Source of the DNA: Acrocarpospora catenulata
GTDB taxonomy: Bacteria; Actinomycetota; Actinomycetes; Streptosporangiales; Streptosporangiaceae
DNA length: 64,000 nucleotides
Assembly (NCBI RefSeq): GCF_018476525.1
Contig: NZ_JAHCST010000001.1
Coordinates: 62,001 to 126,000, forward strand
Direction of reading: 5' to 3'
Numbering within the stretch: position 1 is the stretch's first letter; every line of letters begins with the position of its first letter. Of the stretch, positions 715 through 29,443 are shown piece by piece. Both the position numbers and the translations under genes were made by a program. Below the pieces are notes generated by a model. That model did not search any database, was not told the origin of the DNA, and worked only from the letters and a program-made list of their open reading frames with translations.

Positions 715-750
715 CGTTCACCTATCGCCCGAATGTGCGTTGAGCGAACA
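715..750 (+). promoter_or_regulatory. Tandem IclR-type operator upstream of the first P450 gene
   Basis: The downstream site 734-750 reads TGTGCG-TTGAG-CGAACA. A degenerate site reads CGTTCA-CCTAT-CGCCCG at 715-731, exactly 19 bp upstream. The downstream site ends 30 bp before the ATG. The same 17-bp palindrome and 19-bp pitch recur at 3182-3217, 16646-16681 and 25192-25227. I infer binding by the IclR-family regulator encoded at 2108-2926. Confidence 0.6.
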
Positions 751-780
751 ATTGGCGCGGTCCCTAAGGCAGGCGATGAA

Positions 781-2061
781 ATGGTTGACCAGAACACACA
801 GGAAGCGCCGGCGGCTCGGTGCCCGGTCACGGGGCTGGGCTCGGAGTCGATGGCGACCCGGCTGAACCCGTTCGGGCCGGAGTACCTGGACGATCCCTAC
901 CGGGTGTTCAAAGACGCCCGAGCCGATGCGCGGGCCTATTACAGCGAAGACCTGGGGTACTGGATCCTGACCAGGTACGAGGACATCAGGCAGGTCATCC
1001 GCGACACCGTCAACTTCTCGGCCGACGCCGCCAACACCCCGCTCCAGCCGTTCGGGAAGCCGGTGCTTGAGGAACTGGCCAAGGCCGACTTCCGCCCGGT
1101 GCGCGTGCTCGTGGACAACGACCCACCTGGGCACGTACGCGTGCGGCGCCAGGTCAACAAGGCGTTCAACGCGCAACGGGTGAAGCTGATGGAGGAGCCG
1201 GTCCGCGAGCTGACGCGCCGGCACATCGACCGGTTCGCCGGCCAGCAGGAGGTCGAGTTCGTCTCGGCGCTGGCCTGGCCGCTGCCGGCGCTGGTGCTCT
1301 TCCACCTGTTCGGCATGCCGGACTCCTACCTGGAGGTCGTCAAGAACGGCTCGGCCGACCGGGTCATCCTCACCACCGGCAGGCCGGACGAGCAGGAGGC
1401 GCTGCGGGCGGCCAAGGGCCTCGCCGACTTCTACGCGCTCTGCCGCCAGTTGATCGACGACCGGCTCGAGAACCCCAGGGACGACTTCCCCAGCGACCTC
1501 ATCCGGGCCGGGGAGGGCCAGGAAGAGCCGTTGACCACCCGTGAGCTGGTCCAGGTCATGTACTCGATGCTCTTCGCGGGTCACGAGACCACGACCGGGC
1601 ATCTCACCCACCTGGTCCGGCGCGTGCTGCTGGAGCCGGGCCTGTGGCAGCGGCTGCGCGAGGACCGGAGCCTGATCCCGAACGTGGTGGAGGAGGTCCT
1701 GCGCCTGGAGGCGCCGGTCATCAACTGGCGGCGCCGGGCCAAACACGACGTCGAGGTGGGCGGCGTGACCATCCCCGCCGACGCGAAGATCCTGCTCCTG
1801 CTCGGCTCGGCCAACCACGACGAGGAGTTCTTCGAGGACGCCGACGCGCTTCAGCCCGAGCGCCGCAACGCGCGTCACCACCTGACGTTCGGCTTTGGCG
1901 AGCACCTGTGCCTGGGCGCTCCGCTGGCCCGGCTGGAGGGCCGGGTGGTGCTGGAGGAACTGGTCGACCGCTTCGCGTCGCCGAGCCTGCCGGAACAGGA
2001 GCTGGAGTTCACGCCCAGCATCCTGTTCCGCTCGCCGAAGGCTCTGACGATCACGCTGTAG
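781..2061 (+). CDS. Cytochrome P450
   Basis: A 426-residue class I bacterial P450, a soluble heme monooxygenase that takes electrons from a ferredoxin. Visible motifs are the I-helix oxygen-binding AGHETT (about 266-271), the ExxR pair E305/R308 and the heme loop FGFGEHLCLG (370-379) with proximal Cys377. The ATG at 781 was chosen because AAGGCAGG lies 7 bp upstream and the protein then begins as P450s of this size do; an upstream in-frame extension would cross the operators. It is monocistronic, ends in a strong hairpin shared with the convergent IclR gene, and carries the regulon operator. Ferredoxins at 4605 and 12300 and the reductase at 9872 are likely partners. Substrate unknown. Confidence 0.9.
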   Translation: MVDQNTQEAPAARCPVTGLGSESMATRLNPFGPEYLDDPYRVFKDARADARAYYSEDLGYWILTRYEDIRQVIRDTVNFSADAANTPLQPFGKPVLEELAKADFRPVRVLVDNDPPGHVRVRRQVNKAFNAQRVKLMEEPVRELTRRHIDRFAGQQEVEFVSALAWPLPALVLFHLFGMPDSYLEVVKNGSADRVILTTGRPDEQEALRAAKGLADFYALCRQLIDDRLENPRDDFPSDLIRAGEGQEEPLTTRELVQVMYSMLFAGHETTTGHLTHLVRRVLLEPGLWQRLREDRSLIPNVVEEVLRLEAPVINWRRRAKHDVEVGGVTIPADAKILLLLGSANHDEEFFEDADALQPERRNARHHLTFGFGEHLCLGAPLARLEGRVVLEELVDRFASPSLPEQELEFTPSILFRSPKALTITL

Positions 2062-2070
2062 AAACCCGGC

Positions 2071-2101
2071 ATCGGTCGGCCGCGTCAGGCGGCCGGCCGA
2101 T
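2071..2101. terminator. Hairpin between convergent P450 and IclR genes
   Basis: A 13-bp stem (left arm 2071-2083, right arm 2089-2101, one G-U pair) encloses a 5-nt loop. It lies exactly between two convergent stop codons. There is no U-tract, as is common for high-GC bidirectional terminators. Confidence 0.6.
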
Positions 2102-2107
2102 CGCGCG

Positions 2108-2926
2108 TCAGTTGCGCAGGCGCAGGATGCGCTCGATCTCGGCGCCCGTCGCGCGCAGGGCGGGCAGGTACTCCCGCTCGATCGTCTCGATGGAGGTGCG
2201 GCTCGCGTGCGCCGCCACGCTGATGCCCATGGTCGGGCGATTGGCCTGGCGTACGGGCACGGAGACGGCGCAGATCCCCGCCTCGATCTCCTGGTCCATG
2301 ATGCAGTGGCCCTGGTTCCGCACGGTCTGGATGACCTCGCGCAGGCGGCCGGGGTCGGTAATCGTCCGGTCCGTCTCGCGGCGTAGCGTGGTGGTTCGCA
2401 GGTATTCGTCGAGCTCATTGTCGGTGAGCTCGGCCAGGAGCACGCGGCCGATGGCGGTGAGGTAGGCGGGGATGCGGGTGCCGACCGACAGGGCGAGCGT
2501 CATGATGCGCGGGAACGACGTCTGGGCGCGCGCCACGAAGACGACATCGTGGCCGTCGAGCACCCCTGCCGAGCACGACTCGTGAAGTTTCTCGGCGAGA
2601 TCGTGCAACTGGAACTGGAAGACGCTGTCGACCGACATCGTGGACAGGTAGGAGTAGCCGAGCTCCAGGATGGTCGGCCGCAGCCGGTAGCGCCCGTTCT
2701 CGCAACTGGCGTAGCCGTCGGTCTCCAGCGTGTGGAGGAAGCGGCGGGCCGTCGCGCGGTTCAGCCCGGCCGCGCGGGCGACCTCGGCGATCGTCAGAGT
2801 GGGCTGGCTCTGGGAGAAGCAGCGGATGACCGCGAGACCCCGGCCGAAGGCGCTCACATAGGCCGAGCGAGCCTGGTCGTCGCCCCATTCTGGGCCGTTG
2901 TCGGTCTCCTGCGTGTTCTGGCTCAT
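2108..2926 (-). CDS. IclR-family regulator, PcaR/PcaU/PobR subgroup
   Basis: A 272-residue regulator with an N-terminal winged helix-turn-helix (about 28-85: FGRGLAVIRCF, LTIAEVARAAGLNRATARRF, then LETDGYA) and a C-terminal effector domain. The phrases RGLAVIRCF and LELGYSYLS are typical of the PcaR/PcaU/PobR subgroup, which responds to aromatic acids or beta-ketoadipate intermediates. The ATG at 2926 is preferred over an in-frame ATG at 2998 because AGGA precedes it and the shorter protein matches family length. A regulon-type operator lies upstream at 3027-3043, suggesting autoregulation. I infer it controls the five operator-bearing promoters across 0.7-29.5 kb; whether it activates or represses cannot be read. 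Confidence 0.88.
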   Translation of the reverse strand: MSQNTQETDNGPEWGDDQARSAYVSAFGRGLAVIRCFSQSQPTLTIAEVARAAGLNRATARRFLHTLETDGYASCENGRYRLRPTILELGYSYLSTMSVDSVFQFQLHDLAEKLHESCSAGVLDGHDVVFVARAQTSFPRIMTLALSVGTRIPAYLTAIGRVLLAELTDNELDEYLRTTTLRRETDRTITDPGRLREVIQTVRNQGHCIMDQEIEAGICAVSVPVRQANRPTMGISVAAHASRTSIETIEREYLPALRATGAEIERILRLRN

Positions 2927-3026
2927 GGCATCCTGTGTTCGGTCTCGGGAGGCGGGTTTCGATCGCGATTCAGCGGACTGCGCCCTCTGCGGTGCCATCG
3001 AGATCCTACCCCAGTTATCGATCAGG

Positions 3027-3043
3027 TGGGCGTCAGGCGAACA
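3027..3043 (-). promoter_or_regulatory. Regulon operator upstream of the IclR gene
   Basis: TGGGCG-TCAGG-CGAACA on the plus strand matches the 17-bp consensus with one strong half (CGAACA). It lies about 100 bp upstream of the IclR start and 139 bp before the Rieske promoter hairpin-free segment begins, so autoregulation of the regulator is its likeliest role. Confidence 0.5.
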
Positions 3044-3149: not shown

Positions 3150-3178
3150 TTGACAGGACATGACGGGCTCTCATAGCT
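3150..3178 (+). promoter_or_regulatory. Probable promoter of the Rieske operon
   Basis: A perfect TTGACA (3150-3155) is followed after 16-17 bp by CATAGC/ATAGCT. The TTGACA ends exactly 26 bases before the first operator base at 3182, the same distance as in front of 16646. Confidence 0.55.
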
Positions 3179-3181
3179 TGG

Positions 3182-3217
3182 TGGAGCCACAGCGACCATG
3201 TGGGCGCTATGCGAACG
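3182..3217 (+). promoter_or_regulatory. Tandem IclR-type operators of the Rieske operon
   Basis: Two 17-bp sites at a 19-bp pitch: TGGAGC-CACAG-CGACCA (3182-3198) and TGGGCG-CTATG-CGAACG (3201-3217). They lie just downstream of the predicted -10 box, over the expected transcription start. The pattern repeats that of 16646-16681. Confidence 0.6.
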
Positions 3218-3258: not shown

Positions 3259-4581
3259 TTGATTTCCGTCCAAGAGACCGACAACCTGACTCGCGTCGGA
3301 CCGGGCACGCCCACTGGTGAGTACCTCCGTCAGTTCTGGCTGCCCTTCCTGGGGTCGGACGCGGTGGAGCCCGGCGGCGAGCCGTTCCCCGTCCGCCTGC
3401 TCGGCGAGGACCTGATCGCCTTCCGGCGGGAGGACGGCCTGGTCGGCCTGGTCGACGTCGCGTGCGCGCACCGCCGCGCGCCCCTGCTCTACGCCCGCAA
3501 CGAAGGCTGCGGCCTGCGCTGCGTCTACCACGGCTGGCAGTACGACATCGACGGCCAGTGCACCGACATGCCGGCCGAGCCGGCCAACAGCCGGTTCAAG
3601 AAGCACATCAAGATCAAGGCGTACCCGTGCCGGGAGCGTAACGGGGTCGTCTGGACCTACATGGGTAAGGGCGAGCCGCCGGAGCTGCCCGAGCTGGAGT
3701 GGAACCTGCTGCCGCCCGAGCGGGTGCACATCTCGTTCCGGGTGCAGGAGACCGACTGGCTCAGCTCGTACGAGGGCGAGATCGACTCGGCGCACGCCCC
3801 CATCCTGCACGGCCGGCTCGACAAGACCAGCAAGCGCTCCCGCACGACGATGGCCAGGTCCGGCCGCCCGATCTTCGACGTCATGCAGCAGCCCTTCGGG
3901 GTCAGCGTCGGCGCCCGCCGCGAGGTGCCGGAGCGCGACGAGCTGTACTGGCGGGTCAACCAGTTCGTGATGCCCTTCTACACGCTGGTGCCCCCCAAGA
4001 GCGAGGAGTGGGCCGAGCTCACCGGCCACGCCTGGATCCCCATCGACGACACGCACACCCTCGCCGTCGGCTTCACCTACCTGCCGGACCGGCCGCTGAA
4101 GGAGCGGATGGTCGACGTCTTCACCCACGGATACCAGGGGCGCGAGACCGGCCACCCCAGCGACCAGGCGCAGGATCTCAACGTGCCGCACAACGTGCCG
4201 TACTGGAAGTACGTCACCAAGTTCATGCGCGCCAGCAACTACCTGTTCGACCACAGTCTCCAGCAGACCACCTACTTCTCCGGCCTGCCCGGCCTGTGGG
4301 TGCAGGACGTCGCCGCGCAGAGCGGCGCGCTGGCCGTCCCGCGGACCTTCGAGAACCTGACATCGAGCGACGCCGGCATCGTGGTGGTGCGTCAGGTCCT
4401 GCGCGACTGCGTCGAGGCCTACGCCGCGTCCGGGGAACTCCCCGCCTCCGCCGTCGATCCGTCCCTCTCGCGGGTACGCGCGGTCGCGGCCCTGCTCAAG
4501 CGCGACGAGACGTGGGTGGAGGCGCTCGGCGAGTTCATGTTCAAGCCGGTCGGCGACCCGCTTGGATACACCGTCCCGTGA
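3259..4581 (+). CDS. Rieske non-heme iron oxygenase, alpha subunit
   Basis: A 440-residue oxygenase of the single-component-alpha (phthalate 4,5-dioxygenase / O-demethylase) type. The Rieske 2Fe-2S ligands are C69-x-H71 and C88-x2-H91. The catalytic iron motif is D176-x2-H179-x4-H184 in GEIDSAHAPILH. Such enzymes hydroxylate or demethylate aromatic rings using electrons from a reductase/ferredoxin. The TTG at 3259 was chosen because GGGAGG lies 7 bp upstream and the protein then starts MISVQETDNLTRVGPGTP, as relatives do; longer readings would cross the operators. It heads a 14-gene operon in which genes mostly overlap or lie within 25 bp. No dedicated Rieske reductase is present, so the reductase at 9872 may serve it. 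Confidence 0.9.
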   Translation: MISVQETDNLTRVGPGTPTGEYLRQFWLPFLGSDAVEPGGEPFPVRLLGEDLIAFRREDGLVGLVDVACAHRRAPLLYARNEGCGLRCVYHGWQYDIDGQCTDMPAEPANSRFKKHIKIKAYPCRERNGVVWTYMGKGEPPELPELEWNLLPPERVHISFRVQETDWLSSYEGEIDSAHAPILHGRLDKTSKRSRTTMARSGRPIFDVMQQPFGVSVGARREVPERDELYWRVNQFVMPFYTLVPPKSEEWAELTGHAWIPIDDTHTLAVGFTYLPDRPLKERMVDVFTHGYQGRETGHPSDQAQDLNVPHNVPYWKYVTKFMRASNYLFDHSLQQTTYFSGLPGLWVQDVAAQSGALAVPRTFENLTSSDAGIVVVRQVLRDCVEAYAASGELPASAVDPSLSRVRAVAALLKRDETWVEALGEFMFKPVGDPLGYTVP

Positions 4582-4604
4582 GCGTCAGTGGAGAGGAAAC
4601 ACCG

Positions 4605-4817
4605 TTGAAGATCGTCGCCAGCCGCGAGCTCTGCCGGGGCCACGGGCAGTGCGAGTTGTTCGCCCCCGACTACTTCCAGATCGACGACGACGCCCTCGTC
4701 GTGGTCGTCAAGGACGAGGTGGCGCCCGAGGACGTGATCGCCGTCCAGGACGCGGTCACCCACTGCCCGGAGGCCGCTCTCCGCCTGGAGCAGGCCCGAG
4801 ACGGCGCACGGCAATGA
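4605..4817 (+). CDS. 3Fe-4S ferredoxin
   Basis: A 70-residue ferredoxin with three cluster cysteines, C10, C16 (CRGHGQC) and C54 (HCPE), the pattern of the [3Fe-4S] ferredoxins that feed actinobacterial P450s. The TTG start at 4605 is supported by GAGAGGAAAC with 7 bp spacing; a GTG at 4578 overlapping the Rieske stop is the alternative. It sits directly after the Rieske gene and overlaps the next ORF by 4 bp (ATGA). It probably delivers electrons from the FAD reductase at 9872 to a P450 or the Rieske oxygenase. Confidence 0.85.
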   Translation: MKIVASRELCRGHGQCELFAPDYFQIDDDALVVVVKDEVAPEDVIAVQDAVTHCPEAALRLEQARDGARQ

Positions 4818-5140
4818 AGGTCGGTGACTACCTGCGGGTGCCGTACCTGGTGACCGCGCAGTCGGTGCCGCGCGAGGACGGGACCTGGGTACGCCACGTG
4901 GAGCACCCCGAGCTGCCTGACTGCGTGGCCGAGGCGGAGTCGATCTTCGACGCGCTCCGGCTGCTGGAGGCCAAGCGGATCGAGACGGTGCTCGACATGC
5001 TCGCCGCCGGGCGGACCCCGCCCACCAAAGGTTTCCTGCTCGGCGCGACGCAGGCCTGGCAGCGGGTCCAGCGGGCCGGGCTCGCGGACCGGATCGAGCC
5101 GGTCTGGGAGCACGACGCCGAGTCGCTGCGGGCGCCATGA
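4814..5140 (+). CDS. Small HicB-like protein of unknown function
   Basis: A 108-residue protein, overlapping both neighbours by 4 bp, so surely translated with the operon. The N-terminal half (LVTAQSVPREDGTWVRHVEH, then PELPDCVAEAESIFDALRLL) has the sequence rhythm of the HicB antitoxin-like fold: a short beta hairpin, a PELP-C turn, then a helix beginning after the A/S-rich stretch. The C-terminal half has no recognisable family. There is no HicA toxin and no DNA-binding tail, so a toxin-antitoxin role is unlikely. A structural or enzyme-accessory role in the catabolic complex is possible. Not recognised with certainty. Confidence 0.6.
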   Translation: MKVGDYLRVPYLVTAQSVPREDGTWVRHVEHPELPDCVAEAESIFDALRLLEAKRIETVLDMLAAGRTPPTKGFLLGATQAWQRVQRAGLADRIEPVWEHDAESLRAP

Positions 5141-6237
5141 ACACCGGAGCCGCATTCACAGGTGTCGGTTACTCCGCGATCGATCGGCAGACGGATCGCG
5201 GCATCGTGTCCTACGCCCGCGAGGCCGCGCTCGACGCGCTGCGGATGGCGGGCGTCGAGCGGGACCTGATCGACGGATACGTCGGCATCGGCCAGAACCC
5301 GAACCCGTCGGCGATCGCCGGTGACGGGGCCGACCACGTGTCCGCCTACCTGATGGTCGACACCCTCGGCCTGACCGGGCTCTCTTGGGTCAGCGACGTC
5401 TCCGGCTTCGCCGTCAACATGGCGGCGACGGCGGCGGCGGCGATCGCTTCCGGCCAGTGCACGGCGGTGCTCGGGGTGCGCGCCGTCCACCACGGCGGGG
5501 GAGGGGCACCCAGTCCGGAGGCGGCGGGGACGGCCCAGTGGACCCTGCCGTTCGGCGCCGGACCCGGCGGCACGCGCTTCGCCCTCAGGATGCGGCAGTA
5601 CCTGGAGCGTTCCGGCGCGCGGCGTGAGCAGGTGTGGCAGATCGTGGACGCCGCGCGGGCGCACGCCCGCAACAACCCGGTGGCCTACTTCCGCGACCGT
5701 GAGCTCTCGCTGGAGGAGTACCTGGCGGCGCCGATGATCAGCGACCCGGTCTCGCTCTACGACTGCGACCTGCCGGTCACGGGAGCCGGGGCCTTCGTGA
5801 TGATCTCGGCAGAAGCGGCCCAGCGCGAGGGCCGTCCGGCCGCGTACCTGCGCGCCCACGCGAACTGGACCAACGCCGACGGCATCCTCGACCGGGCAGG
5901 ACTGACCCCGGGCGACATCGACGTCTGCCAGCTCTACGACGGCTACTCCTTCATGGTCTACGAGTGGCTCGAACGGCTCGGCTGGTGTGCGGAGTACACG
6001 GCCTGGAAGTTCGTGGCGGACGGACACACCCGCCCAGGTGGCGACCTCCCGGTGAACACCTTCGGGGGAGCGCTGGGCGAGGGCCGGCTGCACGGCATGG
6101 GTCACCTGCGCGAAGGCATCGCCCAGGTTCTCGGCGCGGCCGGACCGCGCCAGGTGCGCGACGTGGAGCACTGCCTGGTCCAGATCGGTCCCTACGACCG
6201 GTCGGCGCTGGCGGTACTGAGCCGGGAAGCGGCATGA
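5137..6237 (+). CDS. Thiolase-fold lipid-transfer/aldolase protein lacking the nucleophilic Cys
   Basis: A 366-residue thiolase-superfamily protein of the SCP-x/Ltp kind. The segment where thiolases carry CxSG reads SDVSGFAVNMAATAAAAIASG, without cysteine. The C-terminal part shows DVCQLYDGYSF, PGGDLPVNTFGGAL and RQVRDVEH, typical of Ltp proteins. Ltp2-type members, with a DUF35 partner, cleave beta-hydroxyacyl-CoAs by retro-aldol reaction; BbsB of the benzylsuccinate pathway, also with a DUF35 partner (BbsA), is a true thiolase. The DUF35 protein at 16220-16645 is the obvious partner. The missing Cys argues for aldolase rather than thiolase. It is translationally coupled at its 5' end (ATGA overlap) and ends at the following CoA-transferase region. 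Confidence 0.82.
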   Translation: MNTGAAFTGVGYSAIDRQTDRGIVSYAREAALDALRMAGVERDLIDGYVGIGQNPNPSAIAGDGADHVSAYLMVDTLGLTGLSWVSDVSGFAVNMAATAAAAIASGQCTAVLGVRAVHHGGGGAPSPEAAGTAQWTLPFGAGPGGTRFALRMRQYLERSGARREQVWQIVDAARAHARNNPVAYFRDRELSLEEYLAAPMISDPVSLYDCDLPVTGAGAFVMISAEAAQREGRPAAYLRAHANWTNADGILDRAGLTPGDIDVCQLYDGYSFMVYEWLERLGWCAEYTAWKFVADGHTRPGGDLPVNTFGGALGEGRLHGMGHLREGIAQVLGAAGPRQVRDVEHCLVQIGPYDRSALAVLSREAA

Positions 6238-6248
6238 GGAGGACGGAC

Positions 6249-7517
6249 GTGCCGACGGCACAGGCGGAAGAGGGCGCCCTGGCGGGCTGCCGGGTACTGG
6301 AGATCAGCCATCTGGCGGCCGCCGTGGCGGGCAAGGTCCTGGCCGATCTCGGCGCCGACGTGGTGAAGATCGAGCCCCGGGGCGGCGAGCCGGCCCGCAC
6401 CGCGGAACCGGCCCACGTGGACGGCGGCGGCCAGCGGCACGGCCTGAACTTCCTGGCGTTCAACCTGGGCAAGCGGAGCGTGACGCTGGATCTGGACAGC
6501 GAGGCCGGCCGGGAGATCCTCGCCAGGCTCGCCCGGACCGCCGACATCGTGCTGGTGGACTGGGAGCGGATCGGCGACCCCGCCGAGGCCGACCGGCTCC
6601 GCGAGATCTGCACCCGGGACAACCCCGCGCTGGTCTGGTGCGAGATCTGGCCCTACGGCCGGGGAGAGCACGAGTCGACCCTCGCCACCGAGCTCACCCT
6701 CCAGGCACAGGGCGGGCACCTCAACCTCAACGGCGAGATCGACCGGCCGCCGGTACGGATCAGCGCGCCGGTGGCCACCGCGCAGAGCGGGGCGGAGGCG
6801 GCCAGCGCCGCCCTGATGGCCTACTACCACGCGGTCCGTACGGGCGAAGGCCAGCGGGTGGACGTCTCGGTCCAGGCGTGCGTCGTCTGGACCCTGCTGA
6901 ACACGACCATGACCTGGCAGTGCCTGGCCGTGGACGAGGTACGCGGCGGCTCGGTCAAGAAGGAGCGCGGCAACACCTTCTTCACCCGCCTGGTCTGGCC
7001 GTGCCGCGACGGCTTCATCCAGTTCGGCCCGGTCGGCGGCGGTGGCGGGGCCGTACGCGAGCAGTCCTACGCGACGCTGGTGGACTGGATGCGGCAGGAG
7101 GGCCACTACCGGCCCATCCTGGAGGCCCACGACTGGAACGGGCAGGGCCGCTTCGACATCCCGCAGCAGGCCTACGACGAGGTGACCGAGGCGATCGGCG
7201 ACTTCATCCGCACCCGCACCCTCGCCGAGCTCATCGAGCACGGCATGAAACGCCGGATCCTGCTGGCGCCCGTCTACTCGATCCCCCAGTTGCTGGCGGC
7301 CGAGCAGCTGGTCGCCAGGAACTTCTTCCGCAGGGTCGAGGACGACCGGCGGGACGCGACCGCGCTCCACCCCGGTCCGTTCGCCGTACTCTCCCGGACC
7401 CCGCTGGCGGCCCCGCGCCCCGCACCCGTCACGGGCGCCGACACGGTACGGGTGCTCGCCGAGCTCGGGTTCACCGGCGACGACATCGACAGGCTCGCGG
7501 CGGCGGAGGCGGTATGA
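6249..7517 (+). CDS. Class III CoA-transferase (CaiB/BaiF), possibly non-catalytic subunit
   Basis: A 422-residue family III CoA-transferase: CRVLEISHLAAAVAGKVLADLGADVVKIEP at the N-terminus and a TGEGQRVDVSVQ segment mid-protein. The region that normally holds the catalytic Asp (iaDxxxG) reads VATAQSG, so that Asp appears to be replaced. With the adjacent paralogue at 7514 it may form a hetero-oligomer like BbsE/BbsF (succinyl-CoA:benzylsuccinate CoA-transferase). GTG 6249 was chosen for its AGGAGG at 6 bp; ATG 6234, overlapping the upstream stop, is a real alternative. Role: activating a carboxylic acid to its CoA ester. Confidence 0.85.
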   Translation: MPTAQAEEGALAGCRVLEISHLAAAVAGKVLADLGADVVKIEPRGGEPARTAEPAHVDGGGQRHGLNFLAFNLGKRSVTLDLDSEAGREILARLARTADIVLVDWERIGDPAEADRLREICTRDNPALVWCEIWPYGRGEHESTLATELTLQAQGGHLNLNGEIDRPPVRISAPVATAQSGAEAASAALMAYYHAVRTGEGQRVDVSVQACVVWTLLNTTMTWQCLAVDEVRGGSVKKERGNTFFTRLVWPCRDGFIQFGPVGGGGGAVREQSYATLVDWMRQEGHYRPILEAHDWNGQGRFDIPQQAYDEVTEAIGDFIRTRTLAELIEHGMKRRILLAPVYSIPQLLAAEQLVARNFFRRVEDDRRDATALHPGPFAVLSRTPLAAPRPAPVTGADTVRVLAELGFTGDDIDRLAAAEAV

Positions 7518-8740: not shown

Positions 8741-8762
8741 GCACGGCGACCAGGAGGAAACC

Positions 8763-13975: not shown

Positions 13976-13999
13976 CAGTACTTACGTCCAAGGAGAAAG

Positions 14000-14764: not shown

Positions 14765-14780
14765 CCAGGAAGGATCGACG

Positions 14781-18142: not shown

Positions 18143-18171
18143 GCCGGCAAACCATCGCTGAGAGGACGCCC

Positions 18172-21585: not shown

Positions 21586-21643
21586 TGCCCGGCCGCTCCG
21601 TCAACCGCACCCCATCCTTTGTCCGCTTAATGAGAACCAGGTG

Positions 21644-22831
21644 ATGACAGTGGCAGGAGACCCCATTCAGATAGTCGTGGTCGGCGGCGGCATCGGCGGG
21701 CTGGCAGCCGCCAACGCGCTCCTGCATCGCGGCATGGACGTCCACGTTTACGAACAGGCACCCGAACTGGGGGAGATCGGCGCCGGTGTGTTGATCACCC
21801 CCAACAGCCTGCGCCTGCTTGACCGCTTCGGGATCGGTGACGCGATCGCCGCGGTGGGCGCGACCGTCGGCGAGGGCTCGCGGTACTACCGGGAGGACGG
21901 CGCGACCGTGGCCCCGATCCTGACCGTGGACTCCAGCGGGTGGAACGGCATGTTCGGCGTGCACCGCGCCGACCTGGTCGGCGTGCTGGCCGACGCGCTC
22001 CCCGCCGACCGCGTGCACACCGGCCACCGGGCGGTCTCCTTCGCCCAGGACGAGCGGACGGCCGTCGTCGGCTTCGACAACGGCGCCGAGGTGCGGGCCG
22101 ACGCGGTCATCGCGGCCGACGGCATCCACTCGGTCCTGCAGAGGTACGTGGTCGAGCCCTCCGCGCCGGTCGATTCCGGCTCGGTCGCCTACCGCGGTCT
22201 GGTGCCCGCCGAACGCGTGCCATGGTGGCCGAAGGGCGTCTCCCAGCTGTGGATGGGCGAGCAGCGGCACTTCCTGGTCTATCCGGTCCGCCGCGGCACC
22301 CTGATCAACTACGTCGGCTTCGTCCCTTCGCACCAGCAGACCGTCGAGTCGTGGACCGCCGAGGGCGACGTCCAGACGCTCCGCGCCGAGTTCGCGACCT
22401 GGGACAGCCCCGTCCCGCGCCTGCTGGCCGAGGTGGAGAAGACCCACTGGTGGGGCCTGTACGACCGGGACCCGCTCGCCACCTGGACGCGGGGCCGGCT
22501 CACCCTGCTCGGTGACGCCGCCCACCCGATGCTGCCCCACCTCGGGCAGGGCGCGAACCAGTCCATCGAGGACGCGGTCGCCCTCTCGGTCTTCCTGGCC
22601 GACGCCACCGCCGAGGACGTGCCCGAGGCCCTGCGCCACTACGAGGACCTGCGCCGTGGCCGTACCACCGAGGTCCAGCTCGGCGCGCGGGCGAACGGCC
22701 GCCGCTACGACTCGCACTTCCAGGACCTGGCCGAGCGCGACGCCGAGATCGCGGGCTCGGTGCGGTTCCGTTCCTGGCTTTACGACTACGACGCCGAGGC
22801 CGCCGCCCTGGAGGCGCTGGCGGTCCGCTGA
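21644..22831 (+). CDS. FAD-dependent aromatic monooxygenase (salicylate hydroxylase-like)
   Basis: A 395-residue group A flavin monooxygenase: GXGXXG motif VVVGGGIGGLAAANAL, the DG motif AADGIHSVLQ and the GD motif LLGDAAHPMLPHLGQGANQ. Relatives hydroxylate phenolic acids, e.g. salicylate or 6-hydroxynicotinate, with NAD(P)H. ATG 21644 is annotated; GTG 21650 with AGGTG at 6 bp is equally plausible. Located between the aldolase group and the ring-cleavage dioxygenase, it may make the catechol-like substrate. Confidence 0.9.
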   Translation: MTVAGDPIQIVVVGGGIGGLAAANALLHRGMDVHVYEQAPELGEIGAGVLITPNSLRLLDRFGIGDAIAAVGATVGEGSRYYREDGATVAPILTVDSSGWNGMFGVHRADLVGVLADALPADRVHTGHRAVSFAQDERTAVVGFDNGAEVRADAVIAADGIHSVLQRYVVEPSAPVDSGSVAYRGLVPAERVPWWPKGVSQLWMGEQRHFLVYPVRRGTLINYVGFVPSHQQTVESWTAEGDVQTLRAEFATWDSPVPRLLAEVEKTHWWGLYDRDPLATWTRGRLTLLGDAAHPMLPHLGQGANQSIEDAVALSVFLADATAEDVPEALRHYEDLRRGRTTEVQLGARANGRRYDSHFQDLAERDAEIAGSVRFRSWLYDYDAEAAALEALAVR

Positions 22832-22853
22832 CCCCCTAGACGAAGAGAGACCC

Positions 22854-23723
22854 ATGACATCCGAGACGCACCGGGCTTTCATCTGCCTGTCGCACAGCCC
22901 GTTCATGGCGCTGCCGGAACGGAGCGACGCCGGTTACGAGTACCGGGCCGCTGTGGAGGAGACCAAGAAGTTCATCCTCGACTTCGGGCCTGATCTGGTC
23001 GTGATGTTCGCCCCCGACCACATGAACCTGCTCAACCAGGTCCGGCCGCCGTTCACCGGGATCCTCTCGGGCGAGACCCTGCCGGAGTTCGGGATACCGA
23101 GGCTGGAGCTGAACATCCATCCGGTCGCGGAGACCCTGTTCCAGGACCTGGTGACGATGGACGTCGACCTGGCGGTCGGCGAGGAGGTCGCCATCGACCA
23201 CGGTCTCGGCCTGACCCTGCTGCAGCTCTTCGACGAGCCGGGGGAGGTGCCGCTCGTGCCGATCATCGTCAACGCGATCGGCTACCCGCTCTTCCCCGTC
23301 GCCCGGGCCCGCCGGGTGGGGGAGCAGGTCGGCCGCGCGCTCCAGTCGTACGAAGGAAAGGCGCTGTTCATCGGCACCGGCGGCTTGAGCCACAACCCGC
23401 CGTTCCCGGCACCCGCCCCCGGCGTCCGCCGGTTCACCCCGCAGGAGCGTGCCGAGTCGCTGACGACGGCGCTGGACTATCTCGATCCGGTGTGGGACCG
23501 GGAACTGCTCGCCAGGATGGCCGACGGTGACGCCGACTGCTTCAGCGGCCTGTCCCAGGCGGAGCTCGACGTCCGTGGCGGCGGCGCCAACGAGGTGCGC
23601 ACCTGGGCCGCCGCCTGGGCCGCCGGTGGCTCGCCGCCCGCGACGTTCACCAGCTACGAGCTCGTCGAACCGTGGATCACCGGCATGGGCGTCGCGTTCG
23701 GGACCACGCCGGTCCACCCGTGA
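22854..23723 (+). CDS. LigB-superfamily extradiol ring-cleavage dioxygenase (MhpB-like)
   Basis: A 289-residue type II extradiol dioxygenase. Likely Fe(II) and catalytic residues are in CLSHSPFMALP (His12), FAPDHMN and VAIDHGLGLTLLQLF; IGTGGLSHNPP near residue 180 is also characteristic. It most resembles 2,3-dihydroxyphenylpropionate 1,2-dioxygenase (MhpB). It is expected to open a catecholic ring meta to the hydroxyls, giving the product used by the hydratase-aldolase at 18672. GAAGAGAG precedes the ATG. Confidence 0.88.
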   Translation: MTSETHRAFICLSHSPFMALPERSDAGYEYRAAVEETKKFILDFGPDLVVMFAPDHMNLLNQVRPPFTGILSGETLPEFGIPRLELNIHPVAETLFQDLVTMDVDLAVGEEVAIDHGLGLTLLQLFDEPGEVPLVPIIVNAIGYPLFPVARARRVGEQVGRALQSYEGKALFIGTGGLSHNPPFPAPAPGVRRFTPQERAESLTTALDYLDPVWDRELLARMADGDADCFSGLSQAELDVRGGGANEVRTWAAAWAAGGSPPATFTSYELVEPWITGMGVAFGTTPVHP

Positions 23724-25168
23724 GCGACCCGCCTGACGGTGACGCTCATCCGCTGCGCTGGCGGGTCCTGCGGGTCAGCCTGGTCATCGCCTTCGTCTCG
23801 CTGCTCGACGTCACCTTGGTCAATGTGGCGGTCCCGTCGATGCGTTCCGCCCTGGCCACGGACGCCGCCGCGATCCAGTGGGTGGTGTCCGGGTACTCCC
23901 TGGCGTACGGGCTCCTGCTGGTCGCCGGTGGCGCCCTGGGTGACGCCTTCGGCCGGCGGCCGATCCTGCTGACCGGCCTGGCCGGGTACGTCGTGGCCAG
24001 TGCGGCCGTGGGCTTCGCGCCGACGATCGGCTGGCTGATCGTGGCCAGGCTGGTGCAGGGCGCCTGCGTCGGCGTCCTGACTCCCCAGGCCGCCGCGCTC
24101 ATCCAGCAGTTCTTCGCCGGGGAGGAGCGGGGGCGCGCGTTCGGTTTCTACGGGCTGACCGCGGCGGTGTCGTCCATCGTCGGGCCCCTCCTGTCCGGAT
24201 CGGTGATCGCGTTCGCGGGCGCCGAGCACGGCTGGCGATGGCTCTTTCTGATCAACGTGCCCATGGGGCTGGCGGCGCTCGTGGCGGTCCTGCGCCTGGT
24301 GCCGCGCAAACCGGCGGAACTGCGCCGGCGGGTGCGGATCGACCTGCCCGGCATGATCCTGCTGGGGCTGACCGTGCTGGCGTTGCTGTACCCGATCGTC
24401 ACGGTCGGGGACGGCCCGCGTGCCGGCCTGTTCCTGCTCGTCGTCGTGCCCTTGCTCGCTTTCGCCTTCGTCCGGTGGGAGCGCAGGACGTCGCGCCGTG
24501 GCAGGCTCCCGCTGCTCGACGTCGCGTTCCTGCGCACGCTGCCCGGCTACGCGAGCGGGCTGGGCGTGGGCACCCTCTACTTCGGCGGTTTCGCCGGCCT
24601 GCTCCTGGTCCTGTCGGTCTACCTGCAGGAGGGACGCGGCGTCACCGCCCTCGTCGCGGGGCTGCTGCTCACCTCCTTCGCCCTGGGCTCGGCGATCAGC
24701 GCCCCCTTGACCGGGCGTCTGGTCTCCCGGCTCCGACATCGGGTCGTGCTGATGGCACTGTCGGTGATGATGACGGGCGTCGCCCTCGTCGCGGTGCTGG
24801 TCCCCGGGCGACCGCCGGACGCCCTGTGGTGGCTGCTGCCGCCGGCCCTGCTCGTCAGCGGGCTGGGCAGCGGCGCCGTGACCTCGCCCAACTTCACCCT
24901 GTCGCTGGAGGGCGTGCCCCGGGGGATGAGCGGGGTGGCCGGTGGGGCGTTGCAGACCGGCAACAGGATCGGCGCCTCCGTCGGCGCCGCGCTGGTGATG
25001 ACCGTCTACGGCGTCGCGCTGCGGGAGGCCGGGAACTCCGCCGCCGCGCTGCGCGCGGCACTGGTGGCGTCCCTGGTCGTCGTGGGGCTGGCGCTGCTGA
25101 TCGCGGTCTGGGGAGCGAGGTCGGACCGGGTGCGCGCGCCGGGGGGACGAATTCGGTCCGACCGTTGA
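23720..25168 (+). CDS. MFS transporter, 14-helix DHA2/EmrB type
   Basis: A 482-residue membrane protein with about 14 hydrophobic segments. The motif A loop is GGALGDAFGRRPILL and the antiporter-type segment is VQGACVGVLTPQAAALIQ. The DHA2 family mostly exports drugs and organic compounds by proton antiport. As the last gene of the aromatic operon it may export a toxic intermediate. GTG 23720 overlaps the dioxygenase stop. Confidence 0.87.
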   Translation: MSDPPDGDAHPLRWRVLRVSLVIAFVSLLDVTLVNVAVPSMRSALATDAAAIQWVVSGYSLAYGLLLVAGGALGDAFGRRPILLTGLAGYVVASAAVGFAPTIGWLIVARLVQGACVGVLTPQAAALIQQFFAGEERGRAFGFYGLTAAVSSIVGPLLSGSVIAFAGAEHGWRWLFLINVPMGLAALVAVLRLVPRKPAELRRRVRIDLPGMILLGLTVLALLYPIVTVGDGPRAGLFLLVVVPLLAFAFVRWERRTSRRGRLPLLDVAFLRTLPGYASGLGVGTLYFGGFAGLLLVLSVYLQEGRGVTALVAGLLLTSFALGSAISAPLTGRLVSRLRHRVVLMALSVMMTGVALVAVLVPGRPPDALWWLLPPALLVSGLGSGAVTSPNFTLSLEGVPRGMSGVAGGALQTGNRIGASVGAALVMTVYGVALREAGNSAAALRAALVASLVVVGLALLIAVWGARSDRVRAPGGRIRSDR

Positions 25169-25193
25169 CTTGGCGCTAAATGCTCGTTAATTT
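25165..25193 (+). promoter_or_regulatory. Probable promoter of the ABC importer operon
   Basis: TTGACT (25165-25170), 17-bp spacer, TAATTT (25188-25193). The local AT-richness is unusual for this DNA. It lies just after the MFS stop and overlaps the operator pair. Confidence 0.6.
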
Positions 25194-25227
25194 CTCTTAA
25201 AACGAACTTGTGATCGCACAGCGAACA
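25192..25227 (+). promoter_or_regulatory. IclR-type operators of the ABC importer operon
   Basis: The clear site is TGATCG-CACAG-CGAACA (25211-25227). A weak site with the CGAACT half, TTCTCT-TAAAA-CGAACT, lies 19 bp upstream (25192-25208). The weak site overlaps the -10 box. Confidence 0.55.
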
Positions 25228-25293: not shown

Positions 25294-25359
25294 AGTGACT
25301 GGTCGCCGCTGGTTGTCGGTGAGAGCCGAGGGCGCGGTGAAGAAGATGGGACACACACG

Positions 25360-26175
25360 TTGAACGCGAAGATTGACGCGAAGGACGTCCGCCGGAACTT
25401 CACGACGAAGTCTGGTGAGGTCGAGGCCCTCGGCCCGTTCACCATGCAGATCGAGGAAGGCGAGTTCGTCTGCATCGTCGGCCCGTCCGGGTGCGGCAAG
25501 TCGACCATGCTGCGGGTCGTTGGAGGGTTGCTGAACCCCAGCTCGGGATCGGTACGCATCCGCCACGACGGCCCGGAGTCCCAGGCGGTCTCGATCGTCT
25601 TCCAGGACTACAGCATCTACGCCTGGAAGACGGTCGAGGCCAACATCCGCCTCGGCCTGGACATCGCGAAGGTGCCACGCGAGGAGGCCAACGAGCGGGT
25701 CGAACGCTGGCTCCGCCGGATGGGCCTGTGGGACTTCCGCAAGGCCTACCCCCAGACCCTCTCGGGCGGCATGCGCCAGCGGGTGTCGCTGGCCAGGGCG
25801 CTGGTGGTGGAGCCGGACATCCTGCTCATGGACGAGCCGTTCGCGGCGCTGGACGCCCAGATGAGGGCGGTCATGCAGGAGGAGTTGCTGGCGATCTGCC
25901 AGGCCGAGAAGCGGACCGTCCTGTTCGTGACCCACAGCCTCGACGAGGCCATCCTGCTCGCCGACCGGGTCTTCGTCATGAGCGCCCGCCCCGGCAGGCT
26001 GCTGGCCGGCTACGACGTGCCGTTCGAGCGTCCGCGCACCCCCGACCTGCGCGGCACCGAGCAGTTCGCGCACCTGGAGAACGAGATCTGGACCCTGCTG
26101 CGCAACGAGGTCAACCGGGATCTCACCAATGTCGCGGCCGACGGCCGGAGCAAGAAGTTGGAGGCGATTTCGTGA
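25360..26175 (+). CDS. ABC transporter ATPase, NitT/TauT type
   Basis: A 271-residue ATPase: Walker A GPSGCGKST (41-49), signature LSGGMRQR, Walker B ILLMDEPFAALD, then FVTHSLDEAILLADR. This is the nitrate/sulfonate/taurine importer class, members of which import aromatic acids in catabolic clusters. The TTG at 25360 is the only sensible start; a GTG at 25210 lies within the operator. Shine-Dalgarno is weak. It heads the importer operon and overlaps the permease gene by 4 bp. Confidence 0.87.
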   Translation: MNAKIDAKDVRRNFTTKSGEVEALGPFTMQIEEGEFVCIVGPSGCGKSTMLRVVGGLLNPSSGSVRIRHDGPESQAVSIVFQDYSIYAWKTVEANIRLGLDIAKVPREEANERVERWLRRMGLWDFRKAYPQTLSGGMRQRVSLARALVVEPDILLMDEPFAALDAQMRAVMQEELLAICQAEKRTVLFVTHSLDEAILLADRVFVMSARPGRLLAGYDVPFERPRTPDLRGTEQFAHLENEIWTLLRNEVNRDLTNVAADGRSKKLEAIS

Positions 26176-27065
26176 GCATCGAGACCAGCACTCCGGCCGC
26201 GAGCCGGGCGCGGACGGGAACCGGCCAGGCGTCCGCCGGAGTGATCGAACGGGTTCCCGGGCCCGCCGAACGCGACGCGAAGGCCTACCGCCGCCGGGGC
26301 CAGCTCAGCGACAACCTGCTGCGCTGGGGGACGCCGATCCTCGTCCTGGTGCTCTGGCAGCTCTTCGCGATGGCGAAGATCCTGGACCCGCAGTTCTGGC
26401 CCTCCCCTGGCGCGGTCGCCCAGAGCCTGGTGGAGAACGTGAGCTCGGGGTACCTGATCGACCAGTTGCAGGTCAGCATGCTCCGGTTCTTCGCGGGCTG
26501 GGGCGCGGGAGCGCTGTTCGGCCTGGTGCTCGGCGCCGTCCTCGGAACGTTCCGACCTGCCAGGATGGCGATCGAGCCGCTGGTGTCGGCGGTGTTCACC
26601 GTGCCGAAGCTCGCGCTCTTCCCGCTCATGCTGCTGCTGTTCGGCCTGGGCGAGATGCCGAAGATCATCCTCATCGCCCTCACGGTGTTCGTCGTCGTGA
26701 CGATCTCGACGGCGACCGCGATCGTGGCGATTCCCGAAGGCATGAAGGAGCCGCTGCGCTCGGCCCACGCCACGCGCTGGCAGACCTTCCGCCACCTCAC
26801 CTTCCCCATGGTGCTCCCGGAGATCTTCGTCTCGCTGCGCATCACCACCGGCATGGGCGTGCTGGTGCTCGTCGCGGTGGAGATGGTGCAGGGCGCCTCG
26901 GGCCTCGGCTACGTGATCTGGAGCTCGTGGCAGGTCTACGACGTCGAGCGGATGTACGTCGGCATCATCACGATGTCGCTCGCCGGCGTGGCCCTGCAGT
27001 ACCTCGTGATGTGGGTCGGGCGGCTCGTGATGCCCTGGCGTACGGCCGGCAAGCGAACCGCGTGA
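26172..27065 (+). CDS. ABC transporter permease, NitT/TauT type
   Basis: A 297-residue inner-membrane protein with about six transmembrane segments after an N-terminal cytoplasmic stretch of about 50 residues. The EAA-like loop is EGMKEPLRSAHATRWQTFRH and the end GVALQYLVMWVGRLVMPW is typical. GTG 26172 overlaps the ATPase stop. It forms the channel of the importer with the ATPase and the lipoprotein at 27124. Confidence 0.9.
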   Translation: MSIETSTPAASRARTGTGQASAGVIERVPGPAERDAKAYRRRGQLSDNLLRWGTPILVLVLWQLFAMAKILDPQFWPSPGAVAQSLVENVSSGYLIDQLQVSMLRFFAGWGAGALFGLVLGAVLGTFRPARMAIEPLVSAVFTVPKLALFPLMLLLFGLGEMPKIILIALTVFVVVTISTATAIVAIPEGMKEPLRSAHATRWQTFRHLTFPMVLPEIFVSLRITTGMGVLVLVAVEMVQGASGLGYVIWSSWQVYDVERMYVGIITMSLAGVALQYLVMWVGRLVMPWRTAGKRTA

Positions 27066-27123
27066 AGCCCACCCGATTTCTTACGCATGTGAAATACCCG
27101 AGTTCAATGGGAGAACGGTTTCG

Positions 27124-28233
27124 ATGAATGGGACTGCGCGGCCTCCGCACCTCAGCCGGTTCCGCACGCGAGCGATGGCCGCCACCCTGGTGGCGGCGGC
27201 GGCTCTGCTGAGCGCCTGCGGCGGCGACTCCTCCGCCGGCGGCGGGGACGTGACCGTCGTGCCGACGGCCGCGGCGGGCCAGGACCCCCTGGCGCCGCAG
27301 GCGCTCAAGGAGCGTACGACGATCAAGGTCGGCCTGAGCTCCAAGCTGGAGGTCTACCTGCCGATCCTCCTCGGCCAGGAGTTCGGCGAGTTCGAGAAGG
27401 AGAACCTCGAGGTCCAGGTGGAGTACATGCCGCCGACCGACAGCCCGCTCCTGCTCACCCAGGGCAAGCTCGACATCATCTACTCGGGTTTCACGGCCGG
27501 TGTCCTGAACCTCATCTCGGGCAACAAGTCGGTGCGCTTCGCCTACCCGGGCGGCACGGTGTCCTCGGACACCCAGGGCATCTACCTGACCAACGCGTTC
27601 CCGGAGATCTCCGCCCTCACCGCGGCGGACTTCAAGGGCAAGAAGATCATGACGTCCTCCGGCTCGGCGAGCAGCACGTCGTACTTCCTGTGGAAGAAGG
27701 CCACGGAGCTGACCGGCGGTGACAGCCTCCAGCCGACCGACATCAACTGGGAGGCCAGCCAGCTGCCGGAGATCCCGCTGATCCTCAAGCGGGGGGCCGC
27801 CGACGGTGGGCAGGTCATCAGCCCGTACCACAACCAGCTGCTCAGCGAGTCCTGCTGCAAGATCTTCCCGGGCGCCTACCCGAAGTCGCCCCAGACCGGT
27901 TACCTGGTCGGGCCGGCGCTGGCCGGCAAGAAGGACGTGGCGCTCGCCTTCTTCCGCACGCTGGCGCGCACGGAGCGGACCTACCTCCAGGGCAACTACC
28001 ACGACGACGCGAAGGTGCTGGAGGCCATGGCCAAGACCATGGAGCAGAAGAGCGACGTCCTGGCCAAGGGCGACCCGACGGTGTTCGGCCCCGCGCTCGA
28101 AACCAACGCCAACGTCTTCCCCGACCTGCAGAAGTTCTTCCGGGCCTTCGGCGACATCTCCTACCCGGAGGACCTGCCGATCGAGCAGATCTACGATCTG
28201 GACTACGTCAACACCCTGACCGGCAAGCGTTAA
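27124..28233 (+). CDS. Substrate-binding lipoprotein of the NitT/TauT-type importer
   Basis: A 369-residue lipoprotein: basic N-terminus, hydrophobic core and lipobox LLSAC (Cys about 34), then a low-complexity linker. The mature part has the SsuA/TauA-like pattern (KVGLSSKLEVYLPILLGQ, PPTDSPLLLTQGKLDIIYSG). It captures the imported compound outside the membrane. The operon ends in a strong hairpin. The substrate is inferred, from shared regulation, to be the aromatic growth substrate or a precursor. Confidence 0.88.
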   Translation: MNGTARPPHLSRFRTRAMAATLVAAAALLSACGGDSSAGGGDVTVVPTAAAGQDPLAPQALKERTTIKVGLSSKLEVYLPILLGQEFGEFEKENLEVQVEYMPPTDSPLLLTQGKLDIIYSGFTAGVLNLISGNKSVRFAYPGGTVSSDTQGIYLTNAFPEISALTAADFKGKKIMTSSGSASSTSYFLWKKATELTGGDSLQPTDINWEASQLPEIPLILKRGAADGGQVISPYHNQLLSESCCKIFPGAYPKSPQTGYLVGPALAGKKDVALAFFRTLARTERTYLQGNYHDDAKVLEAMAKTMEQKSDVLAKGDPTVFGPALETNANVFPDLQKFFRAFGDISYPEDLPIEQIYDLDYVNTLTGKR

Positions 28234-28237
28234 CCGA

Positions 28238-28275
28238 AAAGGGCGGCGCCTCTCCACCAAGAGGCGCCGCCCTTT
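28238..28275. terminator. Strong bidirectional hairpin terminator
   Basis: Perfect 15-bp stem, arms 28238-28252 and 28261-28275, with an 8-nt loop. The arms end in AAA and TTT, so it works as an intrinsic terminator in either direction between the lipoprotein gene and the convergent racemase gene. Confidence 0.85.
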
Positions 28276-28279
28276 CGAT

Positions 28280-29443
28280 TCACACCACCACCTTCTCCTC
28301 GCGGAGGGCGGCGATCTCGGCCGCGGACAGGCCCAGCTCGGACAGGACGTCGCCGGTGTGCGCGCCCGGCGCGGGCGCCGGCTGGGGAGCCCCGGCCGGA
28401 GTCGCGCTGAAACGTGGCGCAGGGGCGGGGTGGATCACGCCGTCCTCGTCCGTCAGGAAGGTCGCGCGTGCGGCCAGGTGCTCGTCGTACGGGGCCTCGG
28501 CGGGGGAGAGGACCGGGGTCACGCACGCGTCTACGTCGGCGAACCGCCGCGCCCACTCCTCCCGCGGCCGGGCGGCGAACGCGGCGGCGAAGTGCCGGTG
28601 TTGCTCGTCCCAGGTGGACCGGTCGGTCTGCCGGGCCACGTCGACGACCTCGGAAAGCCCGAGCCGCTCGACCAGGGCGGCGAAGAACTTCGGTTCGCTG
28701 GCGCCGACCGCGACGAAACCGCCGTCGGCGCACTCGTAGGTCGTGTAGTACGGACGCACCCCGCTGAACACGCTGGCGCCGCGTTCGGCCGGCCACTGCC
28801 CGCGCGCCAGGTTCCCGTAGACCATCGCCATCAGCAGCGCCGAGCCGTCGACCATGGCGGCGTCGACGACCTGGCCGGGCGCGCCGCCGCGGGCCCGGAG
28901 CACGCCCGCCAGCACGCCGACCGCCAGCAGCATGCCGCCGCCGCCGAAGTCGCCGAGCAGGTTCAGCGGGGGCAGCGGTGGACGGTCGGCGGTGCCCAGC
29001 GCGCCGAGCACGCCCGAGGCCGCCACGTAGTTGATGTCATGGCCGCCGCGCTGGGCCATCGGCCCGCTCTGGCCGTAGCCGGTCATGCGGCCGAACACCA
29101 GCCGGGGATTGGTCCTGAACAGGTCCTCGGGGTCGAAGCCGAGCCGCTCGGCGACCCCGGGCCGGAACCCTTCGATGACCGCGTCGGAACGGTCGATGAG
29201 GCGTCGTACCAGGGCCACACCCCGGGGCTGCTTCAGATCGACGGCCAGGGACCGGCGGCCTCGGGCGAGCACGGGGTTCGGACTGGTGCCGACCTCGGCG
29301 GGCCGGTGGATGCGTACCACGTCAGCGCCCAGGTCGGACAGCACCATGCCACAGAACGGCACCGGGCCCATCCCGCCCAGTTCGACGACGCGGAGCCCGG
29401 TCAAGGGACCCTGGGTGTTCTCAGAGCGAACATGTGAGCGCAT
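28280..29443 (-). CDS. mcr: Alpha-methylacyl-CoA racemase
   Basis: A 387-residue family III CoA-transferase-fold racemase. RMTGYGQSGPMA, RGGHDINYVA and NLLGDFGGGGMLL are diagnostic; catalytic H135/D136 and D165 correspond to H126/D156 of mycobacterial MCR. It epimerises 2-methyl-branched acyl-CoAs so that beta-oxidation can proceed, implying a methyl-branched or alicyclic side-chain in the substrate. The ATG at 29443 has no Shine-Dalgarno but lies about 7 nt after a -10 box, so the mRNA is probably leaderless. The regulon operator lies within its first codons. Confidence 0.87.
   Translation of the reverse strand: MRSHVRSENTQGPLTGLRVVELGGMGPVPFCGMVLSDLGADVVRIHRPAEVGTSPNPVLARGRRSLAVDLKQPRGVALVRRLIDRSDAVIEGFRPGVAERLGFDPEDLFRTNPRLVFGRMTGYGQSGPMAQRGGHDINYVAASGVLGALGTADRPPLPPLNLLGDFGGGGMLLAVGVLAGVLRARGGAPGQVVDAAMVDGSALLMAMVYGNLARGQWPAERGASVFSGVRPYYTTYECADGGFVAVGASEPKFFAALVERLGLSEVVDVARQTDRSTWDEQHRHFAAAFAARPREEWARRFADVDACVTPVLSPAEAPYDEHLAARATFLTDEDGVIHPAPAPRFSATPAGAPQPAPAPGAHTGDVLSELGLSAAEIAALREEKVVV
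29416..29432 (-). promoter_or_regulatory. IclR-type operator inside the racemase 5' end
   Basis: TGTTCT-CAGAG-CGAACA matches the regulon palindrome. It covers codons 4-10 of the racemase and lies 92 bp upstream of the divergent thiolase start. A weaker dyad-like segment lies 19 bp away (29435-29451, TGAGCG half). Confidence 0.6.

Follow-up and report, generated by a model that had tools for sequence, protein, structure and literature searches.

Do the genes of a 30-kb catabolic cluster in Acrocarpospora catenulata answer to one regulator, and if so, to which one? We addressed this question in a stretch of 64,000 nt (assembly GCF_018476525.1, contig NZ_JAHCST010000001.1, forward strand 62,001–126,000), referred to here as the window. 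Coordinates are window positions unless they are prefixed with C1, C119, or C122, which denote contigs of the same genome. The cluster occupies positions 781–30711 and holds about 28 genes, among them one for an IclR-family protein at 2108–2926. A first-pass annotation had pointed out a 17-bp palindrome, TGTTCG-N5-CGAACA, or close variants of it at six positions in the cluster: 734 (site A), 3027 (B), 3201 (C), 16665 (D), 25211 (E), and 29416 (F). It read these as the operators of a single regulon. Our analysis supports that reading, and the six sites probably constitute one regulon of the local IclR protein. The motif is specific at the scale of the genome, it is often shared with IclR homologues that are 43–52% identical, and the recognition helix matches as RxxxRR.

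Occurrence of the Palindrome in the Genome

All six palindromes were recovered in a pattern scan, with one, two, three, zero, one, and one mismatches to the core pattern for A to F, respectively. The whole genome (10.29 Mb, 71% GC) was then scanned with the same pattern, and the reversed pattern served as the control. At no more than one mismatch the window contains four sites, every one of which lies inside the cluster; dinucleotide shuffles gave a mean of 0.07, and none of 100 reached four. There are 11 such sites in the whole genome (one for the control), four of them in the cluster, where the density outside predicts 0.02. The Poisson probability of at least four sites in the 30-kb cluster, given that density, is 7e-9. 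When two mismatches are allowed, the genome holds 172 sites against 77 for the control, and the corresponding probability of at least five cluster sites is 1.6e-4. The motif is specific to the cluster at genome scale and almost absent elsewhere. The concern that it might be equally common throughout the genome, which had been raised together with the regulon proposal, is thus removed by the counts (11 vs. 1) and by the Poisson probability. Site C is unremarkable by its core mismatches alone, as 16 window positions have three mismatches.

Seven sites with at most one mismatch lie outside the cluster. A crude open reading frame (ORF) caller places five of these in coding frames, two of the five being identical copies within one giant ORF. 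By the same caller, the outside site at C119:24801 falls close to the end of an ORF that is short and has weak support.

A Probable Three-Box Operator

Alignment of the six sites with their flanks revealed a third box, CGNNC, that begins 8 bp before the core in all six. On this alignment the operator appears to be a 25-bp unit of three boxes, CGNNC-N3-TGTTCG-N5-CGAACA. The palindrome described by the first-pass annotation is present as the core of the site, but it is incomplete, the operator having three boxes rather than two. The plain two-box palindrome was therefore replaced by the three-box site, on the strength of CGNNC in six of six sites and of a CGAAC-like box in 24 of 43 sites elsewhere. 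The six operators are listed below.

Operator A, 726–750, plus strand: core 734–750, third box 726–730; TTGACC at 680–685, −10 box by eye TACTGT, core centre at about +25; upstream of a cytochrome P450 gene
Operator B, 3019–3043, plus strand: core 3027–3043; between iclR and a Rieske oxygenase gene; no TTGAC
Operator C, 3193–3217, plus strand: core 3201–3217; TTGACA at 3150–3155, core centre at about +24 by eye; upstream of the Rieske operon
Operator D, 16657–16681, plus strand: perfect core 16665–16681; TTGACA at 16614–16619, core centre at about +24 by eye
Operator E, 25203–25227, plus strand: core 25211–25227; TTGACT at 25165–25170, core centre at about +19 by eye
Operator F, 29416–29440, minus strand: core 29416–29432, within the first codons of a CaiB gene; centre at about +20 of the CaiB promoter; also between the CaiB and thiolase genes

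The 25-bp consensus was built from these six sites and matches them by construction, so that only its scarcity elsewhere counts as evidence. No other sequence in the 10.29 Mb matches it exactly, and the two matches at one mismatch both fall in predicted coding sequence. At up to two mismatches we found 19 matches on both strands, including the six, against seven for the control.

Leave-one-out matrices were calculated with A–E in the plus orientation and F in the minus orientation. The background was 377 kb of contig C1, both strands, minus the window and positions 60001–62000. With 31-bp sites, each of the six ranks within the top 6 window positions; no background position scores better for five of them, and one does for site C. 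The weak sites B and C owe their support to these 31-bp scores. When the 17-bp core alone is used, B and C each have 11 window and 2 background positions that score at least as high. At a length of 39 bp, site C has 10 window and 3 background positions at or above its own score. The support for B and C depends on the site length chosen. The reverse orientations score −0.8 for site B and 9.5 for site F.

Degenerate second palindromes lie 19 bp upstream of two of the sites. The one upstream of D, at 16646, has three mismatches; the one upstream of E, at 25192, has four mismatches and is weak, as the window contains 101 such positions.

These features can be compared with the survey of IclR operators by Suvorova and Gelfand (2021; PMC8222616). 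It describes a TGT-11-ACA operator subgroup with the consensus TGTYCRYW3RYGRACA and reports three-box sites for 32 orthologous groups, tandem sites 18–22 nt apart, and an over-representation of aromatic genes in the regulons of the subgroup. The cluster sites resemble this class as it is set out there in their 17-bp core (four of the six are within one mismatch of TGTTCGN5CGAACA), the third box at fixed spacing, the weak 19-bp tandems at 16646 and 25192, and the association with aromatic catabolism and transport. The core of site D, TGTTCGTACAGCGAACA, fits the published consensus except for one central base. Unlike in that consensus, the core centre in the cluster is not A/T-only. The motif, the third box, and the aromatic role match a published operator class, and the regulatory design is known and ordinary.

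Operator Position and Promoters

A TTGAC sequence lies 54–62 bp before the core centre in five of the six sites; such sequences occur at a frequency of 0.00056 of window strand positions. The first-pass annotation had placed every palindrome next to a TTGAC −35 box. This is correct for five sites and fails for B, where no TTGAC is present upstream in either orientation within 90 bp. For the same five sites the predicted transcription starts put the core centres at about +19 to +26, and therefore a protein bound there should block transcription. We prefer repression to activation on this operator position alone.

Site F pairs with a leftward promoter of the CaiB/racemase gene, TTGACC-18-CATACT at 29479–29450 on the minus strand, which was identified by a promoter scan. 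With this promoter, transcription would begin at the A of the ATG, and the CaiB/racemase message is therefore probably leaderless, with the operator core in its first codons. The thiolase gene on the other side, for which a promoter of its own was not identified, is assigned to the regulon because it shares the 29416 region.

Site B coincides in part with the −35 region of what is probably the leftward promoter of iclR (−10 box TAGGAT by eye, 3009–3004). Its position suggests autoregulation of iclR.

The Motif near Homologous Regulators

If the motif belongs to this kind of regulator, it should accompany homologous genes in other genomes. We examined two sets of loci. The first consisted of the 29 best-scoring IclR loci from other genomes of the family, approximately 3–4 kb each and several from one genus; a site with at most two mismatches is present in 23 of these, in many cases as 19-bp tandems. 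The second consisted of the best 80 of 567 relatives, from named genomes and with 43–52% identity. In this set, the 154.7 kb that comprise the regulator genes and the sequence within 600 bp of them contain 18 sites with at most one mismatch, compared with 26 in the other 1,283 kb, and the reversed pattern gave none. When two mismatches are allowed, the numbers rise to 58 near the gene and 80 elsewhere, against 2 and 7, respectively, for the reversed pattern. A near site is found in 14 of the 80 loci at the stricter threshold and in 40 at the looser one. The third box recurs as well: of 43 distinct sites, 24 have a CGAAC-like box (at most one mismatch, either orientation) at offset −8, compared with 0–4 at each of 20 other offsets. 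As far as these sequences indicate, the motif and the third box are traits of the regulator group and not of every member.

The Local Regulator and Its Paralogues

The protein that we take as the reader of the six sites is encoded as follows.

IclR-family regulator, PcaR-like, 2108–2926, minus strand: Pfam HTH_IclR and IclR_C; TIGR02431 below cut-off; PDB match 8eju

Both IclR domains score above their cut-offs (PF09339, 52.8 bits; PF01614, 132.3 bits). The best NCBIfam match is TIGR02431 (PcaR/PcaU/PobR), which covers residues 22–268 of 272 and reaches 278.9 bits, below its cut-off of 284.75. We therefore call the protein PcaR-like and not PcaR. The earlier placement in the PcaR/PobR subgroup comes close, given the nearly full-length best match, but falls short on the score. 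Solved relatives found by PDB sequence match include 8eju, which is named 'Pca regulon'.

Among the 22 IclR matches listed for this genome, recognition helices were compared in 13 sequences (12 loci and neighbours within them). Only three of these carry an RxxxRR helix: the window regulator, one half of a double PcaR protein, and the protein encoded at C122:68924. The RxxxRR helix is common to nearly all of the homologues in other genomes.

The double PcaR protein (C1:243144–244733) joins two IclR units within a single open frame and scores 416 bits to TIGR02431. The double PcaR frame plus a three-box site spans C1:243120–244765, the site lying before the pca operon. This site, at C1:244765, has at most one mismatch and a GAAC box at the third-box position. 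The crude ORF caller puts it within a long open frame; the IclR homology ends at 244733, and start codons assigned by eye place the site between the double PcaR gene and a CoA (coenzyme A)-transferase gene of the pca operon. The latter is followed by genes for a protocatechuate 3,4-dioxygenase beta subunit and a PcaB-like protein. The site is an internal positive control, in that a second PcaR-type regulator stands beside the same kind of site.

Near the third protein with an RxxxRR helix (gene C122:68924–69664) there is a palindrome, TGTCCG-N5-CGGACG, at C122:69757–69773, about 93 bp after the gene. It resembles the PobR motif listed in PMC8222616 and, judging by its position, may be the operator of that paralogue.

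Model and Alternatives

In the model that we favor, the PcaR-like protein would bind all six operators, with a dimer or a pair of dimers holding each 25-bp three-box site. At five promoters the protein, bound with the core centre at about +19 to +26, would block RNA polymerase; at the sixth site it would sit over the −35 region of the likely iclR promoter and thereby restrain its own production. The inducer that releases the protein would be an aromatic substrate, the corresponding CoA ester, or an early intermediate. Release would induce together the P450 gene, the Rieske/CoA/P450 operon, the ring-cleavage operon, the ATP-binding cassette (ABC) importer, and the racemase gene.

Several observations weigh against this assignment. 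Among the best 80 of 567 relatives, 40 loci lack a site with at most two mismatches within 600 bp, and in 4 of the 40 that have one it is only inside the regulator gene. Exact CGNNC at offset −8 is found in 10 of the 43 sites; the counts are 17 at −19, which equals the tandem spacing, and 9 at −15. The local regulator scores just under the TIGR02431 cut-off. The −10 boxes and starts were read by eye, except at 29416. The boxes of site B fit the plus orientation only, which is opposite to iclR; the other five run with their genes. With the leave-one-out matrices, the site at C1:244765 scores 16.5–24.3, compared with 21.3–33.5 for the held-out cluster sites. No orthologous cluster was found for footprinting: a search of genome contigs with the single IclR protein as query gave no relative. 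Likewise, none of the best 80 of 567 loci has more than 5 of 23 cluster proteins (E ≤ 1e-25, flanks up to 10 kb; this query left out two CaiB proteins in one frame, the permease, and the SnoaL-like protein).

A different IclR protein could instead recognize the sites, the double PcaR being the likeliest candidate, alone or in competition with the local one, and the cluster would then be tied to the beta-ketoadipate pathway. We consider this unlikely. It is true that one half of the double PcaR has the RxxxRR helix, that a three-box site lies alongside, and that the cluster contains a PcaF-like thiolase. The leave-one-out score of the PcaR site is above that of C, level with that of F, and below those of A, B, D, and E. 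An earlier comparison had made this site appear clearly weaker (22.7 vs. 30.6–40.0); it was dropped, as the latter values were those of training sites, and against held-out scores the site is about level. Score alone therefore does not tell which protein binds. Against the double PcaR stands the simpler source, a regulator gene within the cluster with a site before it, and the PcaR site is not among the matches to the 25-bp consensus at up to two mismatches. The local regulator is preferred because its gene lies in the cluster and has its own site.

The local regulator might also bind the sites and, like PcaU and PobR, work as an activator or in a dual role. IclR activators of aromatic pathways do exist, which likewise counts against simple repression: HbaR1 and VanR1 of Rhodococcus opacus are described as such in PMC9582017, and titles in the reference list of PMC8222616 call PcaU and PobR activators. 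However, in five of six sites the core follows the predicted start (+19 to +26), a position from which an activator could hardly recruit polymerase, and we regard activation as quite improbable. The same position separates our system from PcaU and PobR of Acinetobacter baylyi, which it resembles in being of the IclR family and, as described in PMC8222616, in combining a palindrome with an external direct half-site: those are described as activators, whereas the operator position here suggests repression.

That the palindrome is merely common in a 71% GC genome and the cluster matches are meaningless is next to impossible: the modest ratio at two mismatches (172 vs. 77) and the weakness of site C alone leave chance open only for single weak sites, and for the set of six it is ruled out by the shuffles, the Poisson probability, the third box common to the sites, and the near-constant distance to TTGAC.

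An IclR regulator of aromatic catabolism has close precedents. PMC8222616 lists GTTCGC-N3-GCGAAC for PcaR of Corynebacterium glutamicum, with the same half-sites and spacing as in our operators. In R. opacus both branches of the beta-ketoadipate pathway are reported to be under IclR repressors, with a putative binding site that overlaps the catR promoter (PMC9582017), and PcaR of that organism is, like the local protein, an IclR regulator of aromatic catabolism. Unlike the C. glutamicum and R. opacus proteins, as these sources present them, the local PcaR-like protein would control an extradiol/P450/CoA cluster and not the protocatechuate branch, and a separate double PcaR stands beside the pca genes. 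The usual IclR regulon is given in PMC8222616 as 'one or two adjacent operons'. The regulon proposed here would span more transcription units than is usual in that survey, but the survey also reports regulogs of 1 to 55 COGs (clusters of orthologous groups).

The Gene Cluster and Its Pathway

The transcription units that the six operators would serve, other than the regulator gene, are the following.

Cytochrome P450 gene, 781–2061, plus strand: Pfam p450; start codon by eye
Long operon, inferred from spacing, 3259–16645, plus strand: Pfam assignments; overlapping or closely spaced ORFs
Second operon, inferred, 16697–25168, plus strand: Pfam assignments; NCBIfam for the aldehyde dehydrogenase (ALDH) and LigB
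ABC importer, 25333–28233, plus strand: ATPase (Pfam ABC_tran; start codon uncertain), permease 26172–27065 (BPD_transp_1), substrate-binding protein 27124–28233
CaiB/racemase-type CoA-transferase, 28280–29443, minus strand: Pfam CoA_transf_3
Thiolase related to 3-oxoadipyl-CoA thiolase (PcaF), 29524–30711, plus strand: PRK09050 and TIGR02430 are the best matches but below cut-offs; TIGR01930 above cut-off

The long operon begins with genes for the Rieske oxygenase, a ferredoxin, a small protein, an SCP-x-type thiolase, and two CaiB CoA-transferases. The rest of it encodes a zinc-dependent alcohol dehydrogenase, a ferredoxin reductase, a P450, an ALDH, a short-chain dehydrogenase/reductase, a further ALDH, and a ChsH2-like protein with an oligonucleotide-binding (OB) fold. 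The small protein (4814–5137, between the ferredoxin and thiolase genes) has no Pfam match; by eye we take it to resemble HicB-like proteins. The second operon encodes an ALDH, a cupin, an aldolase of the dihydrodipicolinate synthase (DHDPS) family, a SnoaL-like protein, a FAD_binding_2 protein, an aromatic hydroxylase (FAD_binding_3), a LigB-type extradiol dioxygenase, and a major facilitator superfamily transporter. The binding protein of the importer has no Pfam match; its sequence and position led us to call it a lipoprotein-like substrate-binding protein. Between the convergent importer and CaiB genes, at 28234–28275, a long G+C-rich inverted repeat is visible by eye, of which a scan scored only a short stretch. 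The repeat is probably a two-way terminator.

From its gene content the cluster looks like peripheral and ring-cleavage catabolism of an aromatic compound via CoA intermediates. The PcaF-like thiolase might point to the beta-ketoadipate pathway, yet ring cleavage looks to be of the extradiol LigB type. By sequence, the best solved relative of the Rieske protein is a putative phthalate 4,5-dioxygenase subunit. That of the flavin hydroxylase (21644–22828) is tropone 2-monooxygenase (8rqh), ahead of salicylate hydroxylases, and that of the LigB dioxygenase (22854–23720) is 2,3-dihydroxyphenylpropionate 1,2-dioxygenase. These best relatives do not point to one substrate.

A search of 344 other genomes of the order gave no match to the LigB dioxygenase at E ≤ 1e-50. 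A single match, with 35% identity and from another family, was obtained among 395 other genomes sampled from the phylum (E ≤ 1e-40). In plasmids it matched 119 records, all below 60% identity and the ten listed at about 34%. Since LigB matches are scarce in the order and the phylum, the pathway is apparently uncommon, and the cluster may have been acquired recently.

A broader interpretation, which we offer tentatively and rate at somewhat short of an even chance, is that a PcaR-type regulator was taken from the beta-ketoadipate pathway and placed in sole charge of a pathway for aromatic degradation, about 28 genes in size, that has not been described. Its five promoters, with one operator just after the start, would link import, activation, ring opening, and a CoA racemase, and the substrate would be one without a known cluster.

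From the operators one can propose which genes within the 30-kb region work as a group. This allows the importer, the stand-alone P450, and the racemase to be placed in a single pathway ahead of any knowledge of the substrate. Each of the five promoters, combined with the iclR gene, would be a ready reporter for finding the inducing compound. The pathway, rather than the regulatory design, is the part worth following.

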